Made by a program: the position numbers and the translations under genes
NCBI GenBank assembly: GCA_022563625.1
Contig: JADFNA010000078.1
Coordinates: forward strand, 1-7,155
Direction of reading: 5' to 3'
From: Candidatus Zixiibacteriota bacterium
GTDB taxonomy: Bacteria > Zixibacteria > MSB-5A5 > GN15 > JACZUZ01
Length of the DNA: 7,155 bases
In this document: positions 2,135 through 7,155 of the stretch, piece by piece
How the letters are laid out: the number at the start of each line of letters is the position of its first letter
How positions within the stretch are numbered: the stretch's first letter is position 1
The notes under the pieces: model-generated
The model's input: only the letters and a program-made list of their open reading frames with translations
What the model was told of the DNA's origin: nothing
The model's database searches: none

Positions 2135-2707
2135 ATGCCTGGAGTAGTGAACGATGTAAATGTCCCATTCATTACTACCGATCAGATGCGCGAAGTAGAC
2201 CGGGCAATGATCGAAGATTACGGCATATCTCTCGTCCAGATGATGGAAAATGCCGGCCGTAACCTGGCCCAACTGGCCCGGCAGCGATTTCTGGACGGTG
2301 ATCCTACGGGGCGTCGCGTTCTGGTGCTGGCCGGCACAGGAGGCAACGGTGGAGGTGGGCTGGTATGCGCCCGACGTCTACGCAACTGGGGGGCAGAGGT
2401 GCAGGTGTGGATGACAGCCCCGAGTACAGATCTCGCAGATGTGCCGCTCCATCAACTCGGTATTCTTCAGCCTATGGGCATCCCCATTGTCGTGGGTGGT
2501 GAATTATTGGTGCTGCCTCCCGCTGACCTCTTGGTGGATGCCATGATCGGCTACAGCTTAACGGCACCACCCACAGGACTCGCGGCATTCCTCAATGCCC
2601 GGCCTGCCGGCGAAGAATGGCATCGCCGCCGGCTTAACAAAATAGAGGCCATCGAGAAGCGTGCGTCACAGGGCCGATCAGGCCCCTCCAGAGGAGAAAC
2701 GGCATGA
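2135..2707 (+). CDS. Chimeric ORF: NAD(P)HX epimerase (YjeF_N) N-terminal part joined to an RpiB C-terminal tail
   Basis: 190 aa. Residues ~10-149 match the YjeF_N domain of NnrE, which epimerises damaged R-NAD(P)HX: the leading helix [18 protein letters not shown], the [10 protein letters not shown] block, the glycine loop [17 protein letters not shown] (residues ~66-82, the GGGG variant of the NNGGDG loop), and the DAMIGYSL strand (~136-143). The domain should continue for another ~60 residues (toward the DLPSG region), but it stops after PPTGLA. The tail from ~151, [23 protein letters not shown], instead resembles the C-terminus of ribose-5-phosphate isomerase B (FLNxxFSGEERHxRRVxKI). Neither protein would be complete, so function is doubtful. 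ATG 2135 has only a weak G-rich site before it. The stop overlaps the next ATG as ATGA. Confidence 0.8.
2585..2707 (+). pseudogene. rpiB: Ribose-5-phosphate isomerase B, C-terminal fragment
   Basis: This is the last ~40 codons of the chimeric ORF. RpiB interconverts ribose 5-phosphate and ribulose 5-phosphate. The residues [20 protein letters not shown] match its C-terminal helix pattern, in which a conserved GEExHxRR(V/L)xKI follows the last core helix. The N-terminal ~130 residues, with the SDHAG motif and the catalytic cysteine and histidine, are absent. An rpiB gene directly before tal fits a pentose phosphate operon, so the 3' border is probably native while the 5' border is a deletion or join point. 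The identification rests on one motif. Confidence 0.6.
2691..2696 (+). promoter_or_regulatory. Ribosome binding site GAGGAG for ATG 2704
   Basis: GAGGAG ends 7 nt before ATG 2704, ideal spacing. Together with the ATGA overlap with the preceding stop it fixes the start of the transaldolase-type N-terminus and supports a native rpiB-tal border. Confidence 0.75.
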
Positions 2708-2808
2708 CGAACACCATTCGAGAAGTCAAAGCCCTGGGGCAATCGATCTGGTACGACAATATTCGGCGCGGGCTGATCGAATCCGGCGAGCTTGCGTCGT
2801 TGATTGAT
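2704..2808 (+). pseudogene. tal: Transaldolase, N-terminal fragment (first ~35 codons)
   Basis: Residues 1-35 of the downstream ORF read like the transaldolase N-terminus of the TAL/bifunctional TAL-PGI type: a short lead, then [20 protein letters not shown], corresponding to the family's LGQSxWLDxIRRxLxxSGEL. The sequence that should follow, DGLxGVTSNPTIFEKAI, and the rest of the barrel with the Schiff-base lysine are absent; at residue 36 the protein becomes an acyltransferase. Transaldolase (sedoheptulose 7-phosphate and glyceraldehyde 3-phosphate to erythrose 4-phosphate and fructose 6-phosphate) fits the operon. The start has a strong ribosome binding site and ATGA coupling. Confidence 0.75.
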
Positions 2809-3453
2809 GTCGAAGGACTTGAACACTTCGAACGGGCCTATCAAAACGGACGGGGTGTTATCACGGCAACCGGTCATATCGGAAATTTTGAACTTATGGC
2901 CGCGTTCTGCGCCCGGAGCGGATTCAAAGGGGCAGTAGTAGGGCGTGAATTATATGACAGGCGTGTCGATGAAATACTGCTCGCAATACGCCGGGCCAAC
3001 AATGTCGTCAATATCAGCACAACCGAGCCGAGAAAATTCATCAGGGCGCTGAAAGACGGCTGCGCAGTTGGCGTATTGATAGACACGGACTCACAGCGGG
3101 TGCGCAGCGGCTTTGTGGAATCATATGGTCGGCTGGCATACACTCCGCTGGGACAGACTATAATTGGCCTGAAAGTAGGCGCGTCATTCGCCCCGCTAAT
3201 CTGCGTGCGCAGGGGCCGGCGCTATACTCTCAAGTTCTTTGAAGAAATGCGCGCGGGAAGGTTCCCGAACAGCGCCGCAGGCCGTCTGCAGGCGGCGCTG
3301 GATTTGACCTGGCGGATTCGCAAATTACTGGACGCCGAAGTGGACCGGGACCCGGCACAATGGACTTGGACTCATAATCGATGGAACACCCGGCCAGACC
3401 CGAAAGCTGGACCCCCGCCCGGGCTGGGTTTGTTTAAACATGGGATTGTATAA
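2704..3453 (+). CDS. Chimeric ORF: transaldolase N-terminus joined to LpxL/HtrB-type lipid A acyltransferase
   Basis: 249 aa. From residue 36 ([10 protein letters not shown]) it is a lysophospholipid/lipid A acyltransferase, which transfers acyl chains from acyl-ACP to the lipid A precursor at the inner membrane. The HxxxxE catalytic motif is H58-E63 in [28 protein letters not shown] and the TPLG block follow, and the typical C-terminal [12 protein letters not shown] is near residues 223-234. The family usually has ~290-310 aa with a membrane helix and about 70-80 residues before VEGLEH; these are replaced by transaldolase residues 1-35, and no hydrophobic anchor is present. The join (2803-2812) falls where the two families share a similar (I)(D/E)xxGL stretch. 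The acyltransferase core looks intact; its expression from a transaldolase start is inference. It is followed by an LptC-like gene, in keeping with LPS biogenesis. Confidence 0.85.
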
Positions 3454-3459: not shown

Positions 3460-3508
3460 GTATCACAGCGGCTAAGAGCGCCAAAATCCGCCAGGCGCTT
3501 GCGTTGCC

Positions 3509-3514
3509 GGGGAG
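3509..3514 (+). promoter_or_regulatory. Ribosome binding site GGGGAG deciding the lptC start
   Basis: This purine run lies 11 nt before GTG 3526 and 20 nt before ATG 3535, so it supports GTG as the start codon. No comparable site precedes the ATGs. Confidence 0.4.
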
Positions 3515-3525
3515 ATTCAACGATA

Positions 3526-4182
3526 GTGCTCTCAATGATGAACCAGACCCGAAATATATTTTATCGCATTGAAAGAAGCGGTTTGGCCGGGGTCAGGAGG
3601 ATTCTCATCCTTCTCGTCACCCTCGCGGCCCTCGTGGCCTTCGCGGCTCTGGCAGCCTGTACCGAACAAAACTCGCCGGCGCCTGAACTGACCGCCACAC
3701 TGGCTGACAGTATCAAGTCCTCCGCCCGTCCGGATCAGGAAAGCGAAAACGCCCGGATTTTCCTGTATGTCGGCGGGCGCCTGTCATCTGAAATTACCGC
3801 AGAAAAGTTCTGGAAGTTCAGCTACATAGATTCGGCGATTGCGCGCGGATTGAAAGTTGATTTTTATGATTCCGAGGGTGTCATAGCCAATCACCTGACA
3901 TCTGATTCAGGGATTATTCTGGAATCTCGCAAAATAATGATCGCGATTGGAAATGTTGTGGCGGTGGCCGCCGACTCAACGACACTTTATACCGAAGAGC
4001 TGCGCTGGAACGGCCTGACCGAAAGTATCACTTCGGACAAATATGTAACAATCATCAGCGGAACCGATACGCTGCGCGGAATCGGCTTCGAAACTGACCG
4101 GAATATGCGCAGTATCAAAATACTGAAAAAGGTCGAAGGATCGCTTTCGGACGGCGGGCCGAAGACCGGCGGCGATAAGTAA
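3526..4182 (+). CDS. lptC: LptC-like LPS export lipoprotein
   Basis: About 218 aa. LptC links the LptB2FG transporter to the periplasmic LptA bridge that carries LPS to the outer membrane. Counting from GTG 3526, RR at 24-25 precedes a hydrophobic segment (26-44) ending in the lipobox LAAC with Cys45, so this looks like a lipoprotein as in many non-proteobacterial LptC proteins. The rest is beta-rich and contains the LptC/OstA-type repeats: GLKVDFYDSEGVIANHLTSD, then TLYTEELRWNGLTESITSDK followed by a VTIISGTDTLRGIGFETD segment, which is the most diagnostic part. GTG 3526 is preferred because GGGGAG (3509-3514) lies 11 nt upstream; ATG 3535 or 3538 is possible, and TTG 3499 less so. Spacing to the acyltransferase is 72 nt. 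The C-terminal tail is Gly/Lys-rich. A close LptA/OstA relative is the alternative. Confidence 0.8.
   Translation: MLSMMNQTRNIFYRIERSGLAGVRRILILLVTLAALVAFAALAACTEQNSPAPELTATLADSIKSSARPDQESENARIFLYVGGRLSSEITAEKFWKFSYIDSAIARGLKVDFYDSEGVIANHLTSDSGIILESRKIMIAIGNVVAVAADSTTLYTEELRWNGLTESITSDKYVTIISGTDTLRGIGFETDRNMRSIKILKKVEGSLSDGGPKTGGDK
3621..3647 (+). repeat. Three 9-bp near-repeats inside the lptC signal sequence
   Basis: CCTCGCGGC, CCTCGTGGC and CTTCGCGGC lie head to tail and encode the hydrophobic core LAALVAFAA. In-frame slippage here would lengthen or shorten the signal segment by three residues. Confidence 0.5.
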
Positions 4183-4222
4183 GCGGCCCACTCAGATGCG
4201 ATGCGCCTGTGCAGGGCGGCAA

Positions 4223-4603
4223 ATGGCGAACCTCAATCAATATTTCGGCTTCTCAGCCAGGCAGTTGTGGGCGCTATGGTGGACACTTGCGCTGGGAGTT
4301 ATCTCAACAATCTATCTGGTTGTGCGTGAATTCAGCTCCGACGTATCAAGCGCCGATGGAATCACGATTTATGTGGGCGGAAAAGACCGCACCTTCAGCC
4401 CGATGGTCATTGTGGACCTGAACAATTCACCCAGAGATTCACTGGAACTGGTACCGGGTATTGGACCGGTATTTGCCGACAGAATTGTCGCATATCGAGA
4501 TTCCAGCGCAGGGTTCTTAACCAAAGAGGACTTGATGAAAATTCGCGGCATTGGCGGGAAGTCATTCCTGCGAATCGAACCGTATATTACCGTAGGAAAA
4601 TAA
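4223..4603 (+). CDS. ComEA-type helix-hairpin-helix protein with N-terminal membrane anchor
   Basis: 126 aa from ATG 4223. Residues 15-34 form one membrane helix (WALWWTLALGVISTIYLVV). After a ~30-residue periplasmic linker come two helix-hairpin-helix motifs typical of ComEA: VDLNNSPRDSLELVPGIGP (65-82) and FLTKEDLMKIRGIGGKSF (98-115), ending in IEPYITVGK, the usual C-terminus of the domain. The family binds double-stranded DNA non-specifically at the cell surface; in competent bacteria it feeds DNA to ComEC, and short ComEA-like proteins of unknown role are widespread. ATG 4223 is preferred over ATG 4196 because an AGGGCGG stretch lies just upstream and the protein then starts close to the membrane helix. 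The gene lies 40 nt after lptC. No comEC is visible. Confidence 0.88.
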   Translation: MANLNQYFGFSARQLWALWWTLALGVISTIYLVVREFSSDVSSADGITIYVGGKDRTFSPMVIVDLNNSPRDSLELVPGIGPVFADRIVAYRDSSAGFLTKEDLMKIRGIGGKSFLRIEPYITVGK

Positions 4604-4653: not shown

Positions 4654-5304
4654 ATGCCATCCATACTTGCAGAAATAGATGTTGCATCTAGCGCCATAAC
4701 AATTTCCGCCTGCGGAGATCAAGACAGCATTGTCTCACTCGTGCGCGGAAAGAATCTGAGTGTCGAATCCGCCCGAACAGAACTGGCGCTGTGCTCGCTT
4801 GACAGATTCAAACGCGAATTTGTCGTCGCGCTGCCAACGCCGACGAAAGAATACTGGTGGACAGCGCGCCTGCGAAATGAGAATCAATCCAGCACACTTG
4901 CCGTTCCTGAATCAATCGCACTGGCAGCCGGACTTATCGCCGATAATCACGCTCCCGACGGATGGACCTGCGGTGTCTTAACTGCCGGGGATTCGGCTTA
5001 CTATCTGTCGCTGTTTTCTGCCGATGGAATCTTCGGACGAATTGCAATTCAGTCACCCTCACTTGCGCGATTGGGCATAGACCTGCGCCAGGCGCTAATT
5101 TCTTCTTTGCCACTTTCGATAAGTTCGCCGTCAGCGGCAGGCTGTGACGCCTTATATGTCCCCGAAGATTTCCCCGGGCGAGACGCGGCCGCGCTGGCAG
5201 AGACATTGCAAATCCTGGTCGAGCGCTGTCCGACTGACAGGAGCGCGCTGGCAAATGCCGGACGGGAGTATCTTGGCTCCGAGATTTCGCGGCTATGCGC
5301 GTGA
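4654..5304 (+). CDS. Unrecognised 216-aa protein upstream of rsmD
   Basis: I do not recognise this family. The frame is convincing: it fills the space between comEA-like and rsmD, and its TGA (5302-5304) overlaps the rsmD ATG 5295 by 10 nt, so the two are probably translationally coupled. No signal peptide or membrane helix is seen, so it should be cytosolic. The composition is rich in Ser, Ala and Leu. The opening EIDVASSAITISACGDQDSI and a second strand set, CGVLTAGDSAYYLSLFSADG (~107-126), have the rhythm of two actin-like (PilM/GspL-type) half-domains, each with a strand-turn-strand beginning and then ...R(I)AIQSPSLARLGIDLRQALISSL. No nucleotide-binding DxGxxxT motif is intact, so if it is actin-like it is degenerate. 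No clear ribosome binding site precedes ATG 4654; the leader is A-rich. Confidence 0.75.
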   Translation: MPSILAEIDVASSAITISACGDQDSIVSLVRGKNLSVESARTELALCSLDRFKREFVVALPTPTKEYWWTARLRNENQSSTLAVPESIALAAGLIADNHAPDGWTCGVLTAGDSAYYLSLFSADGIFGRIAIQSPSLARLGIDLRQALISSLPLSISSPSAAGCDALYVPEDFPGRDAAALAETLQILVERCPTDRSALANAGREYLGSEISRLCA

Positions 5305-5873
5305 CAGGCGGGATCCTCAAAGGCCGCCAACTTACTGCCCCGGCCGGACAACATGTCCGCCCAACCATAGACAAAGTCCGCGAAGCGGTGTTCAACATCT
5401 TGGCGCATGAAGTTCCCGGCGCCGCGGTTCTGGACCTTTTTGCCGGGGCCGGAACTCTGGGAATCGAGGCCCTTTCACGCGGGGCCGAATCAGCCGTATT
5501 TGTGGAGAACGCCTCTGCCGCGACGCGAGTCTTGCAGAAAAATCTGGATCAATTGCATCTGGAGGCGCTCACGTTGCAGATGGACTGGAGCGCGGCGCTC
5601 AAGCGCCTGGCCCAAAACCGCCAGAGGTTCGATTTGATCTTCGCCGACCCACCCTATCAAAAGTTCACCCCGGCCCAGATCGCCGATGCGGTTGCCGAAA
5701 GCCGCTTGCTGGCGCCCAATGGAATTCTTATCATAGAAACGGATGCCAAAGCCGACGCGGACCTGTCGCTGCCTGTTCTCAAGCGACGCAGCTTTGGACA
5801 AACGCAGTTGATCTTTTGCAGCGCAGGCGCCGATTGCGCCGATTGCGCCGAGGAAGTCGAGCCTGGAGAATGA
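5295..5873 (+). CDS. rsmD: 16S rRNA (guanine966-N2)-methyltransferase
   Basis: 192 aa, normal for the family. RsmD uses SAM to methylate N2 of G966 in 16S rRNA on the assembling 30S subunit. The start MRVTGGILKGRQLTAP and RPTIDKVREAVFNIL (22-36) are family hallmarks. DLFAGAGTLGIEAL (47-60) is the SAM-binding motif I and DPPY (118-121) is the catalytic N-methyltransferase motif IV. After the core, the C-terminus ends in an acidic cysteine-containing tail made by a short tandem repeat. The start overlaps the upstream gene by 10 nt with no clear ribosome binding site, which suggests coupling. The next gene, coaD, is a classic neighbour in many phyla. Confidence 0.96.
   Translation: MRVTGGILKGRQLTAPAGQHVRPTIDKVREAVFNILAHEVPGAAVLDLFAGAGTLGIEALSRGAESAVFVENASAATRVLQKNLDQLHLEALTLQMDWSAALKRLAQNRQRFDLIFADPPYQKFTPAQIADAVAESRLLAPNGILIIETDAKADADLSLPVLKRRSFGQTQLIFCSAGADCADCAEEVEPGE
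5827..5850 (+). repeat. 9-bp tandem repeat at the 3' end of rsmD
   Basis: GCGCCGATT occurs twice in tandem followed by GCGCCG (2.7 units). In the rsmD frame it gives the tail ADCADCAEE, beyond the conserved domain. A unit change is in frame and would not harm the fold. Confidence 0.6.
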
Positions 5874-6379
5874 TGGCCAACACGAGAAAGAAAAGCCCGA
5901 GGATTGGCGTGTATCCGGGCGCTTTTGATCCGATCACGAATGGACACCTGTCACTGGTGGTGCGGGCCGAATCTTTATTCGACAGGCTAATTGTCGCTGT
6001 CGCCGAAAACCATGAAAAGCAGACCCTGTTCACGCTCGAAGAGCGGCTGGATCTGGCGCGCAAAGTTTTGAGCAAGTATTCCTGGGTAAGCGTTGAAAAA
6101 ATTGACGGCCTGACTGCGGAATTCGCTAAGAAGAAAAAGGCAGTCGCCCTGGTGCGCGGGGTGCGGGCTGTGTCGGATTTTGAAAATGAATTCCAGATGG
6201 CGCTGATGAACCGCAAACTCGCCCGCGATGTCGAAACAGTTTTTCTGATGCCCTCGCTTTCCTGGGTCTTTTTATCCTCCACCCTGGTCAAAGATGTGGC
6301 CAAAAACGGCGGAGACGTTTCTACCCTGGTTCCGCCTCCGGTCAACCGGGCGCTCAAGAAAAAATTCGCATCCGCCTGA
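5873..6379 (+). CDS. coaD: Phosphopantetheine adenylyltransferase
   Basis: 168 aa. Transfers AMP from ATP to 4'-phosphopantetheine to give dephospho-CoA, the penultimate step of coenzyme A synthesis; usually a cytosolic hexamer. The nucleotidyltransferase motif is GVYPGAFDPITNGHL with T22-G24-H25 as the TxGH signature. LVRGVRAVSDFENEFQMALMNR (93-114) is the highly conserved pantetheine/ATP-binding block, and LSSTLVKDVA (134-143) is the C-terminal SSTxVR-type motif, with Lys140 as in several homologues. ATG 5873 is preferred (GGAG 4 nt upstream at 5865-5868); the adjacent ATG 5870 would give one more residue. Either start overlaps the rsmD stop (TGATG or ATGA), implying coupled translation. 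Confidence 0.96.
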   Translation: MANTRKKSPRIGVYPGAFDPITNGHLSLVVRAESLFDRLIVAVAENHEKQTLFTLEERLDLARKVLSKYSWVSVEKIDGLTAEFAKKKKAVALVRGVRAVSDFENEFQMALMNRKLARDVETVFLMPSLSWVFLSSTLVKDVAKNGGDVSTLVPPPVNRALKKKFASA

Positions 6380-6462: not shown

Positions 6463-7155
6463 ATGAACGCTGATAAAAACATACACACTGAAGAACATCC
6501 GGCGCCGGAAAGCGCCGGGGAAACTTCACGCCTGATTGAAACGCGCCGGGCAAAAGCGGCCGAGCTTCGCAAATGCGGAATCAATCCGTATCCATATCGC
6601 TTTGAACGAACACACACGGCTGCCGAGGCGCTGGCCGATTTTGAAAAACTTTCTGAAAACGAAACAGAAATCCGTGTCGCGGGAAGAATCATGCTCAACC
6701 GCGATATGGGAAAATCAATTTTTGCCGACCTGCATGACCAATCCGGCAAACTGCAGTTGTATGTCAAAATCGATAACGTAGGCGAAGGGCCGTTCGGCAT
6801 ATTTGGCAAACTGGACATCGGTGACATCATCGGCGCCACCGGAACAGTCTTTGTCACGCGCAAAGGAGAAAAATCGCTAAGAGTTACCGGCTTTGAAGTC
6901 CTTTGCAAAGCGCTTCATCCCCTGCCGGACAAACACGCCGGGCTGACAAATGTTGAAACGCGCTACCGCCAGAGATATGTGGATTTGATTATGTCACCTA
7001 ATGTGCGCGATGTGTTCACCATGCGCAGCAAAATTGTCCAGGCGGCGCGCGATTTTCTGAATGGAAAAGGGTTTCTGGAAGTCGAAACGCCGATTCTCCA
7101 GCCGATTTATGGCGGCGCATCGGCCCGGCCGTTTAAGACACATCACAACACGCTT
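6463..7155 (+). CDS. lysS: Lysyl-tRNA synthetase, class II, N-terminal part
   Basis: Runs off the right edge; 231 codons are present of about 500. Charges tRNA-Lys with lysine using ATP, in the cytosol. A short variable lead is followed by RLIETRRAKAAELRKCGINPYPYRF (23-47), typical of the family's first helix. The anticodon-binding OB fold spans about 70-160 (VAGRIMLNRDMGKSIFADL and LQLYVK are clear). The linker TRYRQRYVDLI is conserved, and the catalytic domain begins with class II motif 1, FTMRSKIVQAARDFLNGKGFLEVETP (185-210), then the lysine-pocket signature GGASARPFKTHHN. Motifs 2 and 3 lie beyond the window. ATG 6463 is the only reasonable start; the upstream region is A-rich without a clear Shine-Dalgarno. 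The spacer to coaD is 83 nt. Confidence 0.96.
   Translation, partial: MNADKNIHTEEHPAPESAGETSRLIETRRAKAAELRKCGINPYPYRFERTHTAAEALADFEKLSENETEIRVAGRIMLNRDMGKSIFADLHDQSGKLQLYVKIDNVGEGPFGIFGKLDIGDIIGATGTVFVTRKGEKSLRVTGFEVLCKALHPLPDKHAGLTNVETRYRQRYVDLIMSPNVRDVFTMRSKIVQAARDFLNGKGFLEVETPILQPIYGGASARPFKTHHNTL

Follow-up and report, generated by a model that had tools for sequence, protein, structure and literature searches.

The window, by which we mean the whole stretch of 7155 bases that was analyzed, is one complete contig (C103) of a 2.46 Mb draft genome binned under Candidatus Zixiibacteriota, which comprises 522 contigs and is an estimated 68.4% complete. All the features described here lie on its forward (+) strand. 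The subject of this study is an open reading frame (ORF) at 2704-3453, which begins with ATG and encodes 249 amino acids. Transaldolase models matched the start of its product: NF002881 at residues 1-38 (E 6.1e-7, and 5.1e-8 when residues 1-38 were scanned alone), as well as NF007080. PF00923 (TAL_FSA) gave no match in the ORF at E 0.001; only the first 35 transaldolase residues are present. The acyltransferase family PF03279 was found on residues 21-229 (E 2.1e-24), the alignment starting at position 92 of the 295 in the profile. A transaldolase start and an acyltransferase end within a single ORF, as had been proposed in a sequence-only reading of this DNA, were therefore borne out by the domain matches.

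The acyltransferase part (2788-3453) is of the lpxL/htrB type and most closely resembles P0001, a database acyltransferase of 287 amino acids from a 4156-base contig, to which 216 of 221 residues are identical from E29 to the end, compared with only 3 of the 28 before that point. It was also 54-57% identical to the orthologs G001-G003 from the host family. The motif HIGNFE at residues 58-63 (H58-E63), which we take to be the HX4D/E motif of LpxL/HtrB acyltransferases, is retained. By contrast, the N-terminal part of the acyltransferase is incomplete and the native start seen in P0001 has been replaced: the native N-terminus absent from the ORF measures 66 residues in P0001 and 92 in P0004 and P0005. 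These 66 residues, together with the start of the PF03279 alignment at 92/295, agree with the earlier proposal that the acyltransferase lacks its own N-terminus. The ORF missed the cut-off of the curated NCBIfam acyltransferase models (best score 72.3 bits vs. 273), a shortfall that is uninformative because the full-length relative at locus L043 also remained below the cut-off.

The genes downstream of the ORF are of the host type. They comprise lptC (3499-4182; TIGR04409, 82.4 bits, cut-off 38), a comEA-like gene for a helix-hairpin-helix protein (4196-4603; PF12836, with TIGR01259 below its cut-off), a conserved ORF without Pfam match at E 0.001 (4654-5304; about 34% identical to its counterpart in L043 and L045), rsmD (5295-5873; TIGR00095, 160.7 bits, cut-off 117.5), coaD (5816-6379; TIGR01510, 190.2 bits, cut-off 103.3; 62-67% identical to L043, L045 and L048) and the N-terminal part of what is presumably lysS (6463-7155; PF00152 and PF01336; 61-68% identical to the host family), which is cut by the contig end. 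The true start of coaD is probably the ATG of MMANTRKK, inside the ORF at 5816-6379. The order lpxL-lptC-comEA-orf-rsmD-coaD-lysS was the same at the loci of G001 (L043) and G003 (L045), and the right-side genes were 34-68% identical across loci of the same family (Candidatus Zixiibacteriota). The L043 acyltransferase itself is a protein of 306 amino acids whose gene is preceded by one for a KpsF/GutQ-family (KdsD-like) isomerase. As a side observation, L043 (5409-6521) and L045 (6242-7372) carry an extra protein of 370-376 amino acids between lptC and comEA, the L043 copy of which ends in a PEP-CTERM-type tail and weakly matches von Willebrand-factor-A-type models. In the window, the comEA ORF starts 13 bases from the stop of lptC (4182-4196).

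The genes upstream, up to about position 2808, are of the Chloroflexota type. The contig starts within gnd, of which the part coding for the C-terminus of 6-phosphogluconate dehydrogenase is present (3-371); this fragment matched NF007161 and TIGR00872 below their cut-offs, and was 88.5% identical to L223, whereas identity did not exceed 66% in the host family or 68% in the other members of its order that were compared. It is followed by zwf, encoding glucose-6-phosphate dehydrogenase (396-1898; TIGR00871, 606.6 bits, cut-off 400.6). The two best zwf relatives were those of L055 (Dehalococcoidia UBA1141, 73%) and L056 (SAR202 Io17-Chloro-G4, 71%), whereas the zwf of three genomes from the host's own family were only 44-45% identical to that of the window. 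No other zwf was found in the draft genome. Among the best 80 of 329 confirmed zwf relatives, which were the ones analyzed (51-73% identity), 72 belong, by record title, to groups that we assign to Chloroflexota and 8 carry the label of another phylum, including one Proteobacteria MAG (71%) and one Alphaproteobacteria MAG (61%). These eight records (L057, L061, L107, L110, L112, L122, L126 and L130; zwf 52-71% identical to that of the window) are labelled Proteobacteria, Alphaproteobacteria, Bacteroidetes, Phycisphaerae, Armatimonadetes, Blastopirellula, Thermogutta and Planctomycetota, and may represent mislabelled bins or transfers. It was also observed that gnd and zwf (3-1898) form a single open frame of 631 codons with no stop in between, while gnd ends with its own stop in all four relatives examined (L055, L056, L219 and L223); an indel, natural readthrough or another assembly fault may account for it.

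The remaining left-side genes pointed in the same direction. In comparisons that included five loci (L219-L223) from genomes drawn from the order of the L056 genome, yjeF was 69% identical to L221. The closest database YjeF was P0242 (93%), and its relatives P0320, P0331 and P0353 are named Chloroflexi. The first 35 codons of tal (2704-2808; NF002881 and NF007080) were 72% identical to L056 and were also recovered by a DNA match. The draft does hold another transaldolase, on contig C171, which is nearly full-length (domain positions 2-284 of 285), has a different start and is adjoined by an ORF of the phosphoglucose-isomerase type.

The point of the switch could be placed by comparing the two parent families. 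Four transaldolases from Chloroflexota kin (L056, L060, L061 and L224) read GELxxLI-(E/D)-x-G-(V/I)-T-G at this site, two of the four with GELAxLI. Since transaldolases have G(V/I)TG where the ORF has VEGL (residues 36-39), the latter already belongs to the acyltransferase. As identity to P0001 starts at E29, and V36 onward is acyltransferase only, the switch falls within ELASLID (residues 29-35), the codons of which, at 2788-2808, fit both tal and lpxL. In line with this, a DNA match to the L056 tal, the longest gapless tal match, spanned 2688-2807 (77%) and ended at 2807. The sharp in-frame switch described in the sequence-only reading was thus recovered, although not at 2803-2812 in a common xxGL stretch but slightly upstream. 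An identical DNA word of about 21 bases may underlie this main join, a length that we infer from the protein.

On the left side, some 200 bases before the main join, we detected another in-frame join, which the earlier finding does not mention. The yjeF gene, coding for NAD(P)H-hydrate epimerase, is represented by its N-terminal ~150 residues only (2135-2590; YjeF_N positions 3-117 of 169), while the intact relative P0242 has 246 amino acids and was matched at its 93% identity over 81% of the yjeF ORF. That ORF (2135-2707) parts from P0242 after PPTGLAA, and 20 of the 27 residues that follow are identical to the C-terminus of the ribose-5-phosphate isomerase B encoded by rpiB of L224. At the DNA level, a yjeF match to L219 ended at 2594 and an rpiB match to L224 started at 2583 in one alignment and at 2575 in another, so that the overlapping matches and the divergence of the protein place the passage of yjeF in frame into rpiB at ~2579-2596. 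The rpiB end (2583-2707) formed part of a blastn match (65% over 2583-2792) that runs without a break through rpiB and tal of L224. Because the stop codon of rpiB and the start codon of tal overlap (ATGA) both in the window and in L224, the segment of ~2583-2808 looks like one native piece. The window's own yjeF-rpiB ORF is present in the database as P0241 (186 amino acids), identified by its contig of 7155 bases.

The left side also proved to be out of order. At the locus of G064 (L224), one strand carries in succession tkt, rpiB, tal/pgi, gnd, zwf and pgl, followed at some distance by yjeF. The window instead begins with gnd and zwf, after which come fragments of pgl and yjeF, then the rpiB end and finally the tal start. 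A tal start was found in 12 of the best 80 zwf loci, upstream of zwf in all 12, and yjeF was found in three of these 80, downstream of zwf. Likewise, a tal/pgi end precedes gnd in L219. It is this position of rpiB-tal, or of tal, upstream of gnd-zwf in the relatives that marks the left side as disordered in itself. The pgl fragment, coding for the N-terminus of 6-phosphogluconolactonase (1891-2016), was recognized by a DNA match to L220 (83% over 1354-2016) that ends at 2016, and by the PF01182 gene that follows zwf in L224. Some 90-120 bases of unassigned sequence separate it from yjeF (within 1891-2135). A third join may lie between pgl and yjeF, at ~2016-2135; alternatively, the donor may have lost pgl naturally and kept only a remnant, since yjeF closely follows zwf in L219.

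The nearest relatives therefore differ by side, being Chloroflexota (SAR202/Dehalococcoidia type) on the left and Candidatus Zixiibacteriota, the host family, on the right. In genomes from the order of L056, PF03279 passed its cut-off in 2 of 244 and was detected at E <= 0.001 in 5 of 244; with only two of 244 above the cut-off, the acyltransferase family is rare among the kin of the left side. The right-half genes were absent from the Chloroflexota loci, which is uninformative given that these loci had been chosen around zwf, gnd or yjeF. The native neighbours of both halves can be seen elsewhere: the acyltransferase gene stands after the KdsD-like gene in L043, and in L224 rpiB leads into a full-length tal/pgi upstream of gnd-zwf. 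In order to compare composition, a tetranucleotide classifier was trained with 29 host pieces (from 12 of 21 own loci; nine were left out as N) and 21 pieces from five loci of Chloroflexota kin, and it assigned 50 of 50 training pieces correctly when their own locus was left out. The probability of Chloroflexota was 0.85 and 0.74 for the two (overlapping) left pieces and 0.10 and 0.14 for the right pieces, a result helped by training loci that include relatives of the left genes. Thus, the two sides of the window differ in tetranucleotide composition, in gene order and in their nearest relatives, a discontinuity beyond what chance would produce and in line with a chimera of two genomes.

We also searched for other examples of the fusion. 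With residues 1-40 as the query, 130 proteins were found and 120 were listed, candidates being restricted to 0.55-1.75 times the length of the ORF; 119 of the 120 matches listed carry PF00923 and one carries no domain, and PF03279 was present in none of them. The whole-ORF query found 346 proteins, and the 120 matches listed all carry PF03279 and cover at most 93% of the query. In a search of 59 relatives (60 genomes with the host's own), none of the 50 matches at E < 1e-40 starts before query residue 18, and five weak matches (21-28% identity) begin at query residues 4-17. An acyltransferase family with a transaldolase N-terminus, the case that according to the sequence-only reading would speak against an artefact, was accordingly not seen among the matches listed. 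Another assembly might show the same join, the database clusters of P0001 and P0241 counting 8 and 5 members, respectively.

Taken together, the comparisons argue strongly that the ORF at 2704-3453 is a metagenome assembly chimera formed at short shared words, and very probably not a gene of any organism. This reading is favoured because the two sides come from two phyla, the right side keeps its native order, the left side is disordered and contains a second join, and the architecture is unique among the proteins listed. A chimera of two genomes, one of the alternatives raised earlier, is hence supported by the two phyla, by the lack of a second example among the matches listed, by more than one join and by a join sequence that fits both genes. 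The simplest account of its origin would be that an assembler using short words on thinly covered genomes crossed at 2788-2808 between the two genomes, by way of words of about 20 bases, the join word presumably being short enough for the assembler used. Within the Chloroflexota sequence, it would similarly have passed from yjeF into rpiB at ~2579-2596. The contig would subsequently have entered the Zixiibacteriota bin on account of its longer part, which is of that origin. On this view no organism would make the fused protein, and the real acyltransferase of the host would carry an N-terminus like that of P0001.

Several observations count against an assembly chimera. The estimated contamination of the draft is only 0.2%. 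Both joins keep the frame, which a random join does one third of the time; a kept frame is nevertheless expected if the common stretch is translated into identical residues in the two genes. Further, neither the missing halves nor a second copy of the join word was found in the draft: the 21-base word occurs once, with up to two mismatches allowed, and a search for the P0001 N-terminus returned only C103 itself and a 26%-identical paralogue on C219, with no matching contig end. A passage through the assembly graph is accordingly argued from the comparison with relatives.

Amplification chimeras can look like short pieces joined at short matching stretches, with their order rearranged. Some 800 bases on the left side of the window have this appearance, with pieces of ~450 and ~220 bases that meet at short matches in a rearranged order. 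The chimera could thus have been formed at the bench, through template switching or ligation while the library was prepared or the whole genome amplified, and then been sequenced. We consider this very unlikely, since such molecules would have to be abundant enough to prevail in the assembly at two or more successive places, and a short assembly word accounts at least equally well for the ~21-base stretch common to both genes at the main join.

Real recombination, in which pentose phosphate genes from Chloroflexota were inserted before a decapitated lpxL in a Zixiibacteriota bacterium and a fusion driven from upstream is translated, appears extremely unlikely. The frame is open across the join, the sequence stands on an assembled contig and the HX4E motif (H58-E63) is retained. 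The transferred block, however, would itself have to be broken, with yjeF and rpiB cut and the order reversed with respect to L056, L219 and L224, and the host would also have lost the N-terminus of its acyltransferase. Moreover, the architecture occurs in none of 50 orthologs and in none of the 120 listed matches per search, and the composition has not drifted towards that of the host. It is equally improbable, as this reading would imply, that an anchor-free soluble acyltransferase is made from the in-frame tal translation start and co-expressed with NADPH-producing pentose phosphate enzymes. For the earlier suggestion that recombination had put the acyltransferase under a carbon-metabolism promoter, nothing beyond the open frame was found in favour. 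Finally, a genuine, previously unknown acyltransferase subfamily with a transaldolase-like N-terminus is scarcely credible: no supporting point was found for it, the 120 listed matches (130 found) to residues 1-40 include no acyltransferase domain, and the close relatives that do have their N-terminus have a different one.

An assembly chimera of this kind would mean that protein databases can acquire a false domain fusion even from a draft with a contamination estimate as low as 0.2%, and that such a fusion may be recognized by a change of taxonomy within a single ORF, at a sequence common to both genes. Left uncorrected, the contig would wrongly credit a Zixiibacteriota bacterium with a gnd and a zwf of the Chloroflexota type, the latter being the only zwf found in the draft, and would point to a fusion enzyme that is unlikely to exist. 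In view of the high probability of an artefact, we advise against annotating the ORF at 2704-3453 as a fusion protein, and bases 1 to ~2800 are best regarded as foreign to the draft unless reads show the contrary.

With regard to known proteins, the ORF resembles the bifunctional transaldolase/phosphoglucose isomerase (NF007080) of L056 and L224 in its first 35 residues (72% to L056), and the rpiB end precedes the tal start in the window just as it does at the L224 enzyme; however, the L056 protein has 912 residues, of which the other ~880 are missing from the ORF. Residues 29-249 of the ORF represent the same protein as the Zixiibacteriota LpxL/HtrB acyltransferase (P0001 and G001-G003), from which the ORF differs in lacking the native N-terminus.

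Metagenome assembly chimeras of two organisms have been described (PMC7111523), as have chimeric contigs from low-coverage species (PMC7881036). Such chimeras resemble the window in their different phylogenetic profiles across a sharp join, on a short contig of a fragmented draft. PMC7111523 names read-pair and coverage evidence as signs of a chimera; the evidence for the window comes from sequence comparison. In another study, chimeric genes were flagged when two of their regions aligned to different taxa, with a small overlap fitting both (PMC12108083), and the ORF at 2704-3453 fits the description of chimeric contaminant genes in pangenomes given in that article. The example presented there involves genes of Lachnospiraceae vs. 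taxa such as Veillonella; in the window, the two partners are Chloroflexota and Zixiibacteriota.
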